From a virus: a stretch of DNA of 31,103 nucleotides. Shown here piece by piece: positions 770 to 28,157 of the stretch. A program made the position numbers and the translations under genes. The stretch lies in the IMG/VR virus record IMGVR_UViG_3300034071_002139, positions 1-31,103 of that record; one strand, written 5' to 3'. A model generated the notes under the pieces. It was not told the DNA's origin. It made no database searches and saw only the letters and a program-made list of their open reading frames with translations. Within the stretch, counting starts at the first letter, position 1. Each line of letters opens with the position of its first letter.

Positions 770-868
770 TTTACCCTATAACAAAATCCTTTTACCCTAT
801 AACAAAATACCCTTACCCCGGTCTCGAAATTTTTCCCGGCTCCTGAGATCCTTTTACCCTATAACAAA
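770..868. repeat. Three iteron-like copies of TTTACCCTATAACAAA
   Basis: The 16-base core is present exactly at 770-785, 791-806 and 853-868. Start-to-start distances are 21 and 62 bp, close to two and six helical turns, so all three copies face the same side of the helix. The surrounding DNA is A/T-rich. On the minus strand the core reads TTTGTTATAGGGTAAA, and a near-identical copy overlaps the promoter of the gene at 1837. Binding sites for a replication initiator or repressor are the likeliest meaning; no binding protein is identified. Confidence 0.65.
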
Positions 869-874
869 TACCAC

Positions 875-903
875 TTGCCGTCGACCCCGATCGGGGCTAG
901 TAT
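875..903 (+). promoter_or_regulatory. Promoter of the small-RNA candidate
   Basis: TTGCCG (875-880) and TAGTAT (898-903) are separated by exactly 17 bp, a sigma70-type arrangement. The -35 box lies 7 bp after the third copy of the 16-base motif, so a protein bound there could control it. Transcription would begin near 910. Confidence 0.5.
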
Positions 904-909
904 CGGTGT

Positions 910-1023
910 CTGAACCAAACCCATGTGGTGCGGTTCGGGTGGACAATGAACGAGAATCGGTCTCCCGAGTGGGAAGACCAACCCAGTAGGGGGATGCGTC
1001 CCTCTACTGGGTTTTTTGTTTTT
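910..1023 (+). ncRNA. Candidate small structured RNA (~110 nt)
   Basis: A promoter-like pair (875-903) and a very strong intrinsic terminator (980-1023) bracket about 110 nt with no good ORF. The predicted transcript can fold into three hairpins. In the first, GAACC 912-916 pairs with GGTTC 932-936, extended by TGTC 907-910 with GACA 942-945 if transcription starts slightly upstream. In the second, GGTCT near 959-963 pairs with AGACC 975-979. The third is the terminator. I do not recognise a known RNA family. Its position beside iteron-like repeats resembles antisense or copy-control RNAs of replicons, but that is analogy only. Confidence 0.5.
980..1023 (+). terminator. Strong intrinsic terminator
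   Basis: The arm at 980-993 (AACCCAGTAGGGGG) pairs with 1000-1013, a 14-bp stem with a single G-U pair and a six-base loop. It is followed by TTTTTTGTTTTT. It would stop a + strand transcript, most simply the small-RNA candidate just upstream. Confidence 0.85.
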
Positions 1024-1052
1024 ATGGCAAATGAGAAACGGGAGATCTTTTG

Positions 1053-1310
1053 AATCCTAACAAAACAACCTCCCGTTTCCTCCGGCGATCTCCCGTTTGC
1101 AAAGGCCGTCCGGAGTTACGGCACTCGGTCAATCGGATGCAGCCCTACTCCTGCTTACATCCCAGCCGACACAGGGGCTTGTTTGATCCCCGTCAATCTT
1201 GCCCTCGGGCCGGTCAAATTAGCCGCCCTCGAAAATCGGCTGGAACCTAGGTAGGAGTAGGGCAAAAGGACTTTCGGCTCTTTCGGACGGGAGGTTGCTT
1301 TGTTAGGATT
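1053..1310. repeat. 258-bp imperfect inverted repeat, MITE-like
   Basis: The outer 24 bases (1053-1076) match the reverse complement of 1287-1310 at 23 of 24 positions. Inside, 1142-1152 pairs perfectly with 1253-1263, and 1162-1169 with 1236-1243. The whole unit can fold into one long interrupted hairpin with an apical region at about 1170-1235. It has no coding potential. Length, terminal inverted repeats and lack of a gene fit a miniature inverted-repeat transposable element, but I see no clear target-site duplication. The sequence AAACGGGAG also occurs at 1036-1044 and, inverted, at 1070-1078 and 1090-1098, giving an alternative local hairpin at the left end. Confidence 0.55.
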
Positions 1311-1385
1311 AGCTTCGACGGCCCCAGCCTGCAACCCGCATGGCACCGGCGTTTAAGCGCCCTAACAGGCACACAAAATAGCGAA

Positions 1386-1665
1386 AATCAGGGAGATCTT
1401 TTTTGGTCGAAAAATGCGAAATTGGGGTTAAGTCGTTGAGACTCTAGGGGAGGGAGGAGGAACTCTAAAAAAGAAGAATACTTTTTTCCCTTCATTTATA
1501 CGACTTCGTAACTATACGGTTGCGTTATTTTGAGGGGAATTAAAGAAAAGTGAAAGTGCTCTCCCTTACTCCCGTGGCTCGCCTGATTTGCTTGATCTCA
1601 CTAAGGCTAGGGAGTAAGGGAGATCTTTTTTGACATCTCCCTGATTTTTTCGGATCTCCCTGATT
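1386..1665. repeat. Cluster of direct and inverted GGGAGATC motifs
   Basis: AATCAGGGAGATC occurs at 1386-1398. Its reverse complement is complete at 1653-1665 and present as 12 bases at 1635-1646. GGGAGATCTTTTTT occurs at 1391-1404 and again at 1618-1631. The copies at 1618 and 1635 can pair with each other and compete with the hairpin at 1560-1623. Operator sites or recombinase arm sites are possible. Confidence 0.5.
1560..1631 (+). terminator. 14-bp perfect hairpin followed by a T run
   Basis: TCTCCCTTACTCCC (1560-1573) is perfectly complementary to 1610-1623, with a 36-base loop. ATCTTTTTT follows. This has the form of an intrinsic terminator with an unusually long loop; it may instead be a regulatory or recombination structure. 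No obvious gene ends just upstream. Confidence 0.45.
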
Positions 1666-1802
1666 ATTGCAACTGACTTGCGTTAAGAGACGATTTTGAC
1701 CGACCCGCGTCAGATTTTGGTGTGTTTGTCAGGACTTTTCGTGGCTGTTGTGTTAGGGTTTTGACTGGCCCTAAAGGGCTATCTCCCGAAACGGCTTCTG
1801 CG

Positions 1803-1831
1803 TTGTCCGCTCCCGCTAATTGTTGTAGGGT
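1803..1831 (+). promoter_or_regulatory. Promoter of the exported small protein, leaderless type
   Basis: TTGTCC (1803-1808), a 17-bp spacer and TAGGGT (1826-1831) precede the ATG at 1837 by five bases. The -10 box lies within TTGTTGTAGGGTAAA (1820-1834), one base different from the minus-strand reading of the motif repeated at 770-868. The same regulator may therefore act at both places. Confidence 0.5.
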
Positions 1832-1836
1832 AAATT

Positions 1837-2620: not shown

Positions 2621-2973
2621 TGAGAAGACAACAAGGAACTAAGAACCAGAGGTTTTCGTGGGAGATCTTGAATAAGGTTCTCGTGACGCTAAGAGAACAC
2701 GGCACGCTCACCACCCCGCAGTTGATCAAGACGGCAGGTCTAGCCTCGTGCTTCTCAGCCGGGAGGATCTTTCTCTACAACGAGATGCTGACCGAGTCGG
2801 GATCTCAGGAGAGGTTAGTCGCCAAGAAGGGTTCGGGAAGAGTACTCATGTGGAGCCTACGAATCGTGCCTACCGCTCGTGAGCTAGCCGAGAAGTTCGA
2901 CATGAATCCGCTATCTGAAGAGAACCACAGAAAGAATCTGGCTTGCGCGAGAACACGTCAAAGAAGACCATGA
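2617..2973 (+). CDS. Small winged-helix-like DNA-binding protein
   Basis: This 118-residue basic protein starts at the ATGATG at 2617, overlapping the stop of the MarR-like gene, and its own TGA overlaps the integrase start. Residues of about 14-80 look like a helix-turn-helix with a wing: a helix ending L-V-T-L-R-E-H-G, then TLTTPQLIKTAGL, a short hydrophobic loop and a basic strand around K-K-G-S-G-R-V-L-M-W. No family is recognised with certainty. Its place just before the integrase fits a recombination directionality factor or regulator. Codon use, with many AGA, AGG and CTA codons, differs from the neighbouring genes and suggests separate ancestry. Confidence 0.5.
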   Translation: MMRRQQGTKNQRFSWEILNKVLVTLREHGTLTTPQLIKTAGLASCFSAGRIFLYNEMLTESGSQERLVAKKGSGRVLMWSLRIVPTARELAEKFDMNPLSEENHRKNLACARTRQRRP

Positions 2974-4079
2974 GTGACCCCATCAAAACCTACCCGTCAA
3001 AGGATGGGCGCGTTGAGATCCGCTATCGGGTTGGTAGCACCCGCCACCGCGAGACGACCAAAGCCGACGTCGCTGCCACACGGGTTGTCGAGATCAGGCA
3101 ATACCTGTCCCGATGCCAGAAGCCGCTCACCCCTCGCGAGGTCGAGGAGTATCACGCCGCCGTGGCATTGCTGCCAACCGGGGTATCCTTGATCGAAATC
3201 GCCCGTCAATACGTCGCCCCGGCCAAGAGCGCCGTCACGATGCCCGACGCCATCGCCGCCTACCTCACTCATTGCCGCAGCCGGAACTTGGCCGAGCGCA
3301 CTCTCGACGACCGCAAGCAGCATCTCACTGCCTTCCGCACCTGCTCCTTCATCGAGGATGACCCGGCCAAGGTCACATGGAATGCCGTCGACCAATACCT
3401 CGGCACCTTCGAGTCTCCCAAAACGGCCAACACCCACCGGGCGACGCTCGTTTCTTTTTTCGACTATTGGTGTAAAATCTCCGGGGCGACCGTCAATCCG
3501 GCCAAGCAGGTCGAGGCACGCAAGGTGCCGGTGAAGGACCCCGTCCCCTTTACCCCGACGCAGCTTCACCGTCTCCTTGATGCGGCTTACCGACTCGAAC
3601 TCCCCGACGTCCTCCTCTTCCTCGCCCTCGGTGCTTACACCGGCGCACGGGCCAAGGAGATCGAGCGGTTGACTTGGGGCGACGTATGGAACCCGCAGCA
3701 AAGCCACCTTGTCCTTTCATCGTCGATCACCAAGACCAATCGTCGCCGCACGATCCCGCTACTCGCGCCGATGACGCAGATCATCGAGCACGCCAAACAG
3801 GCCGTCCACGCGGATCTGCTGCCTGTTGATCCGACTCGGCTCCTTGTTACCAAGCGACTGCGCCGCCGCCTGAGTAAAGTCGCCGCTGCGGCCGGGGTCG
3901 ATTGGGTTGACAATGGCCTAAGAAAAGGCTTTGTGTCAGCAGCAGTGACTCTCCACGGCACCGCCCGGGCGGCGTCGTGGGCCGGGCACAGTGAATCTGT
4001 TCTTGAATCGAACTACAAAGCCCTCGTCTCCGAGGAGGATGCGCAGGACTGGTTCTCCGTTTACCGACCCAACCCATGA
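2970..4079 (+). CDS. int: Tyrosine recombinase (phage integrase)
   Basis: The product of 369 residues has an N-terminal SAM-like core-binding domain (about 95-185) and a C-terminal catalytic domain. Visible active-site elements are Arg227 in G-A-R-A-K-E-I, Arg318 in N-G-L-R-K, His340 in A-G-H-S and the nucleophile Tyr349 in S-N-Y-K-A-L. The His of the usual H-x-x-R box is Asn315. Length is normal for phage integrases. I choose the ATG at 2970 because it overlaps the preceding TGA, giving coupled translation; an upstream ATG at 2943 would add nine residues. The segment after the tyrosine (L-V-S-E-E-D-A-Q-D-W-F-S-V) resembles Verrucomicrobiota integrases. It should carry out site-specific integration and excision; the attachment site is not identified. 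Confidence 0.88.
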   Translation: MSDPIKTYPSKDGRVEIRYRVGSTRHRETTKADVAATRVVEIRQYLSRCQKPLTPREVEEYHAAVALLPTGVSLIEIARQYVAPAKSAVTMPDAIAAYLTHCRSRNLAERTLDDRKQHLTAFRTCSFIEDDPAKVTWNAVDQYLGTFESPKTANTHRATLVSFFDYWCKISGATVNPAKQVEARKVPVKDPVPFTPTQLHRLLDAAYRLELPDVLLFLALGAYTGARAKEIERLTWGDVWNPQQSHLVLSSSITKTNRRRTIPLLAPMTQIIEHAKQAVHADLLPVDPTRLLVTKRLRRRLSKVAAAAGVDWVDNGLRKGFVSAAVTLHGTARAASWAGHSESVLESNYKALVSEEDAQDWFSVYRPNP

Positions 4080-4330
4080 AAACCTACACTCGCGACCAAA
4101 TCCACGAAATCGTTGTCGACTCGCTTTCTGAGCGCACCTCGATTCCGGTTCACATCACCGACATCCGCCTCGAAGATCTCGGCATCGACAGCGTTGAACG
4201 CACTGAAGTGATTGTCGACATCGAGGAACGCTTTGACATCGAGATCCTCGACGAGGACGCCGAGTTGTGGCAGACCCCCGACGACATCATCGATTACCTC
4301 ATCGACATCCTTGCCTCTCCCTACCTATGA
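4076..4330 (+). CDS. Acyl carrier protein
   Basis: The 84-residue acidic protein has the full ACP pattern: an N-terminal helix, then L-E-D-L-G-I-D-S-V-E with Ser39 as the predicted 4'-phosphopantetheine site, followed by helix II (E-V-I-V-D-I-E-E-R-F-D-I-E-I) and a last helix ending D-D-I-I-D-Y-L. The serine is followed by Val where Leu is most common, which the family tolerates. ACPs carry acyl chains as thioesters for fatty acid, lipid or polyketide synthesis and need a holo-ACP synthase, presumably from the host. Its ATG overlaps the integrase stop and its own stop overlaps the next start, so it is firmly within the integrase operon. An ACP in a phage gene cluster is unusual. What it acylates cannot be told from the window. 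Confidence 0.85.
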   Translation: MKTYTRDQIHEIVVDSLSERTSIPVHITDIRLEDLGIDSVERTEVIVDIEERFDIEILDEDAELWQTPDDIIDYLIDILASPYL

Positions 4331-4650
4331 ACGAAGAGGAAGGGGAAATACTGGCGGAAGCGATCAAAAAAATCAAGGATCTCAAGGCCAGTTTTCATCA
4401 GGCGATCGAGAAAGCCATCGTCTCTCAGTTGGAGATTATCGAGGGGCATGTGCCTACGGACGAGGAGATCATTCATCACGCTCGCCGGAGTGAGTCCTTC
4501 GATGCAATGGTGCATCAGATCTGGTGGAAAAACGAATTGATCGTCGACGCCCGAGTCAACATGGATTTTGAGAACGACGCAATATCTTACGAAATCCGTG
4601 TTCGCCACCTTGTTGAACTTTCTGACGAAATCTCGGTTGACCTCGACTGA
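4327..4650 (+). CDS. Unrecognised 107-aa protein coupled to the ACP gene
   Basis: It starts at the ATG at 4327, which overlaps the ACP stop codon. The product is acidic, with a long N-terminal amphipathic helix (about residues 5-40, E-I-L-A-E-A-I-K-K-I onward), a middle segment containing M-V-H-Q-I-W-W-K-N, and a C-terminal half that looks like alternating beta strands (V-D-A-R-V-N-M-D-F, I-S-Y-E-I-R-V-R). There is no membrane segment and no catalytic motif I can name. The tight coupling suggests that it works with the ACP or in the same early operon, but this is inference. Confidence 0.65.
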   Translation: MNEEEGEILAEAIKKIKDLKASFHQAIEKAIVSQLEIIEGHVPTDEEIIHHARRSESFDAMVHQIWWKNELIVDARVNMDFENDAISYEIRVRHLVELSDEISVDLD

Positions 4651-4664
4651 ATTTACTCTATAAT
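4637..4664 (+). promoter_or_regulatory. Near-consensus promoter, leaderless type
   Basis: TTGACC (4637-4642), a 16-bp spacer and a perfect TATAAT (4659-4664) lie inside the end of the 107-aa gene. The ATG at 4672 follows the -10 box by seven bases, so transcription should start at or next to the start codon. This promoter probably starts the replication operon. Confidence 0.75.
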
Positions 4665-4671
4665 TAATCCC

Positions 4672-4878
4672 ATGAGTAAAAAACCCGCAGGCCGACCCCG
4701 AGAACTGGACGCCCCCATCCAACTGAATCTCTGCGTCGAAGCCCAGACCAAGGTGCGACTGGAAGAACTGACCGATGCGGCCAAGCAGATTGACCCCAAG
4801 GCTAGCCTCAGTCGCGTTGCCTCCGCCCTGATTATTGAGAAGCACGAAGAAATTTTCGGAACCATTGAGCCTGCATGA
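4672..4878 (+). CDS. Small ribbon-helix-helix-like protein
   Basis: The product has 68 residues: a basic N-terminus (K-K-P-A-G-R-P-R), a strand-like stretch (I-Q-L-N-L-C-V), and two helices around A-Q-T-K-V-R-L-E-E-L-T-D-A-A and S-L-S-R-V-A-S-A-L-I-I-E-K. This is the order of a ribbon-helix-helix DNA-binding domain, which binds operators as dimers. It is the first gene after a strong promoter and its stop overlaps the start of the resolvase gene. It may repress its own promoter. The family assignment rests on pattern only. Confidence 0.55.
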   Translation: MSKKPAGRPRELDAPIQLNLCVEAQTKVRLEELTDAAKQIDPKASLSRVASALIIEKHEEIFGTIEPA

Positions 4879-5450
4879 CCAAGGAACGCCTCATTATCGC
4901 CATCGATCCCGGAGCCAATGGCTCCATCGTGGCTGAGTATGCCTCATCTCTTTGCCGAGAAGAGAGGGAATCCTGTCGGTTTACCACCTACCCGATTCCG
5001 GAGAAGCTGTGGGACCTCTACGAGTTGCTCCACAAAATTACGTTTGACGATGTGTTCACCAGCAATTTAGCGCCGGTCGCCTACCTCGAACACAACACCG
5101 GTTTCATGGCGGGCATCAAGCGCAAGACCGCGGACGGCGGCGAGGAAGCTGGAGGCGTTTCTCCGAAAGCGATGTATTCCTTCGGACGCAACACCGGGCA
5201 CATCGAGATGGCACTGGTCGCACTGCGCATCCCTGTCTGCCGGGTCACCCCGATCAAGTGGCAGAACGCGGCCGGGGTGACGACCGCCAAGAAAAAGTTG
5301 ATGACGCCGACTCAGTGGAAGAATCATTTGAAAGCCGCAGCGCAAGAGAGGTTCCCCAAAACCAACGTGACCCTCGCAAACGCCGACGCTCTCCTCATCC
5401 TCGACGCAGCCTGCAACCGCGGGATGAAGCACGTCGAGAATCTTTTCTGA
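4875..5450 (+). CDS. RuvC-like Holliday junction resolvase
   Basis: This 191-residue protein has an RNase H-fold nuclease pattern typical of phage RuvC-like resolvases. The first strand ends in I-A-I-D-P-G-A-N-G (Asp11), the central strand in Y-L-E (Glu72), and the C-terminal helix carries N-A-D-A-L-L-I-L-D (Asp171 and Asp177). These acidic residues would bind two metal ions and cut branched DNA. Length is near the 160-190 residues of RuvC. Its ATG overlaps the previous stop. It should resolve replication and recombination intermediates before packaging. A related RNase H-fold nuclease with another substrate is the main alternative. Confidence 0.75.
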   Translation: MTKERLIIAIDPGANGSIVAEYASSLCREERESCRFTTYPIPEKLWDLYELLHKITFDDVFTSNLAPVAYLEHNTGFMAGIKRKTADGGEEAGGVSPKAMYSFGRNTGHIEMALVALRIPVCRVTPIKWQNAAGVTTAKKKLMTPTQWKNHLKAAAQERFPKTNVTLANADALLILDAACNRGMKHVENLF

Positions 5451-5526
5451 CCCCGCCCCGTGAACTGCAACACCCCGGCGAGACGCCACCCAAAGCGCAA
5501 ATCGCCAGCACGAATCGACGTGTGAC

Positions 5527-5544
5527 CCCCGCGGACGCGCGGGG
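5527..5544. repeat. GC-rich hairpin between resolvase and P-loop gene
   Basis: CCCCGCG (5527-5533) and CGCGGGG (5538-5544) form a perfect 7-bp stem with a four-base loop, in the 124-bp gap after the resolvase gene. No T run follows, so it is not a classical intrinsic terminator. It may protect or attenuate the transcript. Confidence 0.5.
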
Positions 5545-5574
5545 CTAGGGGATTCTTTCCCGACCCTACCTGAC

Positions 5575-5928
5575 ATGAACCACCCCATCCCTACCCTCGA
5601 CCGCCTCATCATTGTCGTCGGCCCGCCACAGAGCGGGAAGACGCTCAATGCCCGGGTTATCGCCGAGCACTTCAAGTGTCCGGTTTACGACGATCTCAAC
5701 ACCCTCGCGCAGGACTACCAGTTCGAGGACTTCGTTTCCGCGGTATTGATTTGCTCCGCGCCACCGTCGGTTCAACACGGTGCTTTCGCAGAAGACTGCG
5801 GACCCCGTTTTGTCATCAAGCACGAGCGGCGCTACGTCTACGCCCGTGAGGTGCGTCTTGAATCCCCCGATCGTTTGCGCGGCAGCGTCGTCGGTTGGGT
5901 CGACCCCAAACCCATGGAGAAGCTTTGA
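5575..5928 (+). CDS. Small P-loop NTPase-like protein
   Basis: The 117-residue product has a Walker A motif at residues 16-23 (G-P-P-Q-S-G-K-T) after a hydrophobic strand (R-L-I-I-V-V), then a helix and Y-D-D-L. The beginning matches small phage nucleotide-binding proteins and kinases. There is no clear Walker B or lid, and the protein is shorter than typical nucleoside monophosphate kinases. It may be a reduced kinase-like protein or a small ATP-binding accessory factor. No promoter or ribosome binding site is evident; it lies after a hairpin in the replication cluster. Confidence 0.6.
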   Translation: MNHPIPTLDRLIIVVGPPQSGKTLNARVIAEHFKCPVYDDLNTLAQDYQFEDFVSAVLICSAPPSVQHGAFAEDCGPRFVIKHERRYVYAREVRLESPDRLRGSVVGWVDPKPMEKL

Positions 5929-5931
5929 CCG

Positions 5932-6357
5932 ATGAATTCCGAAAAACTCCCCTCCGTCTACGTCACTTACGACACTCGCCGCAAGGTGTGGGTCTTGATG
6001 TTCGACTACAAGCTCTCGTTGCCGGTAGACAAGCGGGAGCGGATCGACGTGTCGATTCCCGCGGGCTTCGAGTTTGACCTTGCCTCCATCCCCCGGCCGA
6101 TCTGGCCCCTTATTGGCAGCTTTGAGTTGTCCCTCGTCGCCCCTCTGATCCACGATTATTTCTACCAATACACTGGGCGACCGGTCTACCATCGCCGCAT
6201 CCTTGACAACCTCCCGGTTCCCGCCGGTTCGTGGCATGACGTGTCGCGGGCCGAGGCCGACAGGCTCTTTCTCTCCCTCATGCTGCGCGAAGGGGTGACC
6301 TCGTGGAAAGCTTACGCCGCCTATCGTGCCGTTCGCCTCTTCGCCCATCGCTGGTAG
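5932..6357 (+). CDS. DUF1353 family protein
   Basis: The 141-residue product shows the DUF1353 pattern: a conserved I-P-A-G-F-E-F-D-L-A-S-I-P-R segment, then A-P-L-I-H-D-Y-F-Y, then S-R-A-E-A-D-R-L-F and a C-terminal Y-R-A-V-R-L-F. Proteins of this family are common in phages and prophages and their biochemical role is not established. The conserved Asp and His residues in F-D-L-A-S and I-H-D could be catalytic or metal-binding. It begins three bases after the P-loop gene stop, so the two are probably co-translated. Length is normal for the family. Confidence 0.75.
   Translation: MNSEKLPSVYVTYDTRRKVWVLMFDYKLSLPVDKRERIDVSIPAGFEFDLASIPRPIWPLIGSFELSLVAPLIHDYFYQYTGRPVYHRRILDNLPVPAGSWHDVSRAEADRLFLSLMLREGVTSWKAYAAYRAVRLFAHRW

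Positions 6358-23309: not shown

Positions 23310-28153
<4,844 letters not shown>

Positions 28154-28157
<4 letters not shown>

Follow-up and report, generated by a model that had tools for sequence, protein, structure and literature searches.

Gene setting and second carrier of the locus

The window, which is the whole 31,103-base virus record analysed here, encodes a tyrosine integrase (2970-4079), a helicase-exonuclease fusion, a DNA polymerase and a primase-like protein, together with a winged-helix protein (2243-2620) whose weak similarity to MarR_2 lies slightly under the curated cut-off. A tRNA search of the window found none. The candidate small RNA (sRNA) sits in the intergenic gap between an upstream, co-directional gene on the plus strand (2-532) and a 103-aa gene that begins at 1837, and the 103-aa, winged-helix and integrase genes are all co-directional and downstream of the terminator at 980-1023. 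Directly 3' of the integrase, a gene at 4076-4330 encodes an acyl-carrier-like protein (PP-binding, E 7.7e-9). A 1615-aa protein (23310-28157) contains long GPTGPTG collagen-like repeats and is perhaps a tail fibre.

Table 1 Features of the locus and of related sites in the window.
Feature	Position	Strand	Remark
Operator-like motif ATTTGTTATAGGGTAAA, copy 1, 16/17	770..786	-	Kept in the contig of L002, L007:9069-9085
Operator-like motif, copy 2, 16/17	791..807	-	No L002 counterpart
Operator-like motif, copy 3, 17/17	853..869	-	5 bp before putative -35; kept, L007:9561-9577, 15/17
Weak promoter-like pair TTGCCG-17-TAGTAT	875..903	+	8/12; spacing and TTG/TA...T kept in L002, rest of hexamers not
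Candidate small RNA, ~112 nt	908..1019	+	5' end inferred from promoter position and onset of conservation and consensus fold
Hairpin 1 (consensus form)	908..944	+	Pairing preserved despite changes at 911 and 912
Possible three-way junction, GAACGAGAA paired with U-rich tail	948..1021	+	Invariant in both phages
Hairpin 2, GGTCTCCC-GAGT-GGGAAGACC	959..979	+	One U-A pair becomes A-U in L002 (compensatory)
Intrinsic terminator, 15-pair stem and T6GT5	980..1023 (stem 980-1013)	+	Same 15-pair stem in L002
Hairpin just 3' of terminator	1035..1079	+	43/45 identical in L002
Operator-like motif, 15/17	1818..1834	+	Directly before ATG of 103-aa gene
Operator-like motif, 13/17, palindromic form TTTGTTGTAGACAAA	2177..2193	+	Precedes winged-helix gene
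Operator-like motif, 14/17	4652..4668	-	On promoter-like pair TTGACC-16-TATAAT (4637-4664)

An integrase search identified a second carrier, the 49,946-base contig IMGVR_UViG_3300035670_000314, whose integrase is 76% identical and whose copy of the sRNA element lies at L002:3619-3729 (L002, L003, L004, L005 and L007 are all pieces of this one contig). The initial scan of viral contigs had missed it because the base preceding CCCAGTAG differs in L002. Viral contig scans for further carriers returned just this contig again and one distant phage (L006); since the scans rely on exact short seeds, diverged copies may exist. No relative was found in scans of genome contigs, and blastn of the element gave no match in 50,697 phage records or in 72,556 plasmid records. 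The distant phage has a helicase 38-40% identical and a terminase adjoining its integrase, and the sRNA model R1 has no match in its 17.3-kb record, which may be a fragment. R1 was made from both known copies, so its strong matches there arise by construction; it also matches the minus strand at 972-1085 (E 0.00045), most likely because the terminator is palindromic. In the named-phage searches, no relative was found for the terminase or the winged-helix protein, the integrase gave only two matches, at 26%, and all matches of the DNA polymerase fell below 60% identity. The phage lineage is almost absent from the collections searched.

A conserved non-coding fold that ends in an intrinsic terminator

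The stretch at 908-1019 folds, is intrinsically terminated, is non-coding and is conserved in one relative. The identity between the window and L002 is 103/113 over 908-1020, against 28/39 directly upstream (869-907). In L002, about 470 bp that carry a minus-strand ORF (3097-3561) lie between motif copies 1 and 3, and the sRNA module is nonetheless intact. This ORF, of 154 aa and without a Pfam match, is absent from the window, and its ATG directly follows a motif copy.

No start-codon ORF of at least 60 aa lies within the sRNA stretch, which agrees with the sequence-only reading of this interval as free of ORFs. A 35-codon frame starts from ATG 946 in the window; at that position L002 reads AAG, and a 1-nt indel falls within the frame; an ORF reading is disfavoured because of this indel and the lost ATG. 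Coding was rejected more broadly, since the two phages do not share the frames that cross 890-1085. On the opposite strand, an 82-aa frame over the element in L002 is shifted in the window by the 1-nt indel, and no minus-strand ORF of at least 60 aa overlaps 908-1019 in the window, on which ground a cis-antisense RNA of the OOP type was also rejected. The absence of a recognised RNA family was confirmed: the Rfam 15 search of the window gave 0 matches at the curated score, and the permissive searches gave matches only below gathering scores. No recognised description of the element was found in the literature as judged by titles and abstract starts, which cannot prove it unpublished.

The region 905-1023 of the window folds at -55.4 kcal/mol (z -4.9, with 0/200 shuffles as good), and the two further hairpins noticed earlier beside the terminator are part of this fold. 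The terminator itself measures 15 pairs instead of the 14 bp first given, and no other listed site in the window has so long a stem leading into a T run like this one. Of all the parts, hairpin 1 is weakest, with a z of only -0.6 for 905-945 alone, where 54/200 shuffles are as good in the window and 32/200 in L002; each phage prefers a slightly different form, and the form preferred in the window leads to one A-C in L002. The consensus fold of the two sequences contains 45 pairs, of which 41 are unchanged, three change on one side via G-U, one changes on both sides and none is broken, so the stems are conserved in the relative, structural conservation here resting on two carriers and a single truly compensatory pair. 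When the fold of L002 alone is put on the window, 1/47 pairs breaks.

Random placement of the same nine substitutions was equally good in 2.1% of 20,000 trials, in a test from which columns 1-3 and the 1-nt indel were left out. When the 3' letters were dealt anew between both sequences, the compensatory result was matched in 248/500 cases, a column shuffle that is uninformative at two sequences. The compensatory changes looked for among homologous loci amount to one pair, from two carriers. The pairs between GAACGAGAA and the U tail prove nothing because they are invariant between both phages.

Among 116 aligned windows of 120 nt, the lowest column-shuffle z on the plus strand are -9.17 (968-1087) and -6.74 (928-1047), scores that are not those of the sRNA alone since both windows include all or part of the hairpin at 1035-1079; the lowest z among the 65 windows inside 2970-6000 is -3.15. 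The minus-strand values for 928-1047 and 968-1087 are -8.05 and -7.28, and 905-1020 alone gives -7.55 (+) and -7.92 (-). Similar values on both strands, which count against the sRNA, are to be expected where there are inverted repeats.

The sigma70-type pair with 17-bp spacing proposed in the sequence-only reading is present, but it matches at only 8/12 and its hexamers are not kept in L002, where the matching place reads TTGCGG/TACCGT and no promoter site of at least 8/12 is found nearby. A promoter scan with a threshold of 9/12 listed no site at 875-903, and such 8/12 sites are present in 3.8% of 40-bp segments drawn at random from the window, while shuffling 868-907 yields one in 2.4% of cases. 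A start set by this pair would fall at about 908-910, which is also the onset of the consensus fold and of the conserved block.

Operator-like repeats and readings of the candidate sRNA

Three phased copies of a motif upstream of the promoter-like pair had been described before, and the 15-base TTTACCCTATAACAA indeed recurs without mismatch at 770, 791 and 853, with spacings of 21 and 62. The window holds 6 sites with at least 13 matches to the 17-base ATTTGTTATAGGGTAAA, where 0.13 would be expected, and L007 has 8 (0.23 expected). L002 counterparts exist for 5/6 motif places, among them 2/3 of the upstream copies, now about 470 bp apart, and the motif that overlaps the window's best sigma70-like promoter match (11/12, at 4637-4664) has a match at the corresponding place of L002 (L007:14136-14152). 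Three L007 sites (4513, 6090 and 7977, 13/17 each) could not be paired with window sites because that part lies outside the window record.

The repeats were read as operators over replication iterons because single sites precede other genes and overlie a promoter; the three-copy array thus looks more like a set of putative operators. No replication initiator gene was identified beside the repeats. The earlier view of them as iteron-like repeats of replication is accordingly less supported, and a role in copy control is without support. The operators of phage repressors and MarR-type regulators are partly palindromic sites of about 16 bp near promoters, which the present sites resemble, here adjoining the winged-helix gene with its weak MarR_2 similarity. 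The regulator that would act on the motif is perhaps this winged-helix protein.

Four readings of the stretch were weighed. A leader attenuator would start at about 908 and usually stop at 980-1023 and, on a signal, allow readthrough across the 780-nt region into the 103-aa, winged-helix and integrase genes. We consider it unlikely, although the terminator does lie upstream of these co-directional genes, no strong plus-strand terminator is listed for 1024-1837, and the tail is also complementary to an upstream segment: no conserved antiterminator able to compete with the terminator stem shows up in the consensus fold, the first gene is about 800 nt away, and no leader peptide is conserved (in the window the MWCGSGGQ frame ends after 8 codons, in L002 it reaches 21). 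It is quite unlikely that the stretch is a plain terminator with the 3' untranslated tail of the gene ending at 532, from which more than 340 nt of repeat-rich DNA separate it. In L002, an opposite-strand ORF is present in between, yet 908-1020 is kept at 91%, and a mere terminator would presumably need neither hairpin 2, nor the junction, nor an exact T6GT5; the position of a strong plus-strand terminator downstream of that co-directional gene and the weakness of a separate promoter do speak for such a tail. The structure scores, symmetric across strands, the many adjoining inverted repeats and the integrase 2 kb off would suit an element that acts at the DNA level as part of attP, of a replication origin or of a regulator array, with an incidental RNA fold. 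This is distinctly improbable given the conserved one-directional terminator with its T run and the three one-sided changes of the consensus fold that pair only through G-U on the plus strand, although the window's form of hairpin 1 yields one A-C in L002.

To a phage-encoded, independently transcribed and intrinsically terminated sRNA at 908-1019 (+) we assign about an even chance; it remains a candidate because only two carriers and one compensatory change are available. Transcription of this sRNA would start near 908-910 from the weak promoter beside the last of the three operator-like sites, and a phage regulator, perhaps the winged-helix protein, would set its level. The sRNA may act in trans via short base-pairing by the conserved segment between hairpins 1 and 2 (GGACAA-GAACGAGAA), which could be freed if a chaperone takes the U tail, and the partner may be a phage or host mRNA in the lysogeny choice. 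A scan of 29 window genes for trans-targets gave nothing convincing (lowest z -3.55, at the start of the DNA polymerase), and none stood out in the comparison with L002, which covered only three genes and yielded no conserved candidate. The best reading of the sRNA locus is a lysogeny-side control region. The possible role in lysogeny suggested earlier would fit the neighbourhood, with its integrase and winged-helix regulator.

In the part of a published survey drawn on here, phage sRNAs that tune lysogeny or replication include OOP of lambda, sar of P22, 24B_1, PreS/LPR1 and VpdS, and the lysogeny-control sRNAs among its tabulated rows are mostly 20-225 nt, with one of about 550 nt (PMC12197685). 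The candidate resembles the sRNAs in that part as a small phage transcript, predicted in our case, near control genes (PMC12197685); unlike them, it has no annotated or 60-aa opposite-strand partner, and no sequence or Rfam relation was found. It resembles the phage sRNAs in size and place; neither its sequence nor a known target ties it to them. According to the same part of the survey, most known phage sRNAs come from a small number of intensively studied hosts (PMC12197685). If true, the present case would be an sRNA from a lineage nearly absent from the searched collections; its three-hairpin form is conserved, and a regulator circuit probably surrounds it.

The folded element next to the candidate sRNA

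The sRNA is followed by a noncoding, conserved element of about 780 nt that is rich in inverted repeats (window 1024-1812, L002 3733-4515). Its blocks are 0.71-0.96 identical and are separated by stretches of 0.41-0.63. Complementary blocks are nested within it, namely 1054-1078/1285-1309, 1144-1169/1236-1261, 1359-1367/1751-1759, 1369-1379/1714-1725 and 1383-1397/1635-1649. Folding gives a z of -8.3 for the window copy and -4.8 for that of L002; for three coding controls of the same length the values are 0.5, -2.4 and -2.3. Three results count against RNA: the score is equal on the plus and minus strands; changes on both sides of a pair show no excess (16, where shuffles average 21); and the strand test is tied, with 2 G-U versus 2 A-C cells among the 123 pairs common to both folds. 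The element may be a large structured RNA or a DNA element and is a candidate only.

GOLLD and ROOL are large phage and prophage RNAs, as described in the portion of the source used here (PMC12286853). The comparison with them applies to the 1024-1812 neighbour, not to the sRNA: as far as that portion goes, the neighbour is of similar size, likewise noncoding and heavily folded, and belongs to a phage (PMC12286853); unlike them, it has no Rfam match even at permissive E-values, and the window has no tRNA. We regard as doubtful a two-part RNA locus in which the sRNA and a new large folded class of phage RNA of about 780 nt, of the giant ornate kind and unrelated in sequence to GOLLD and ROOL, would both be framed by the operator sites of one regulator (853-869 and 1818-1834), with the sRNA terminator as the gate that decides whether the large RNA is made. 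If transcribed, the 780-nt folded neighbour would be a new large phage RNA comparable with GOLLD and ROOL. The motif GGGAGAT has 7 of its 17 window occurrences within 1040-1788, in both orientations, where these copies form several stems.
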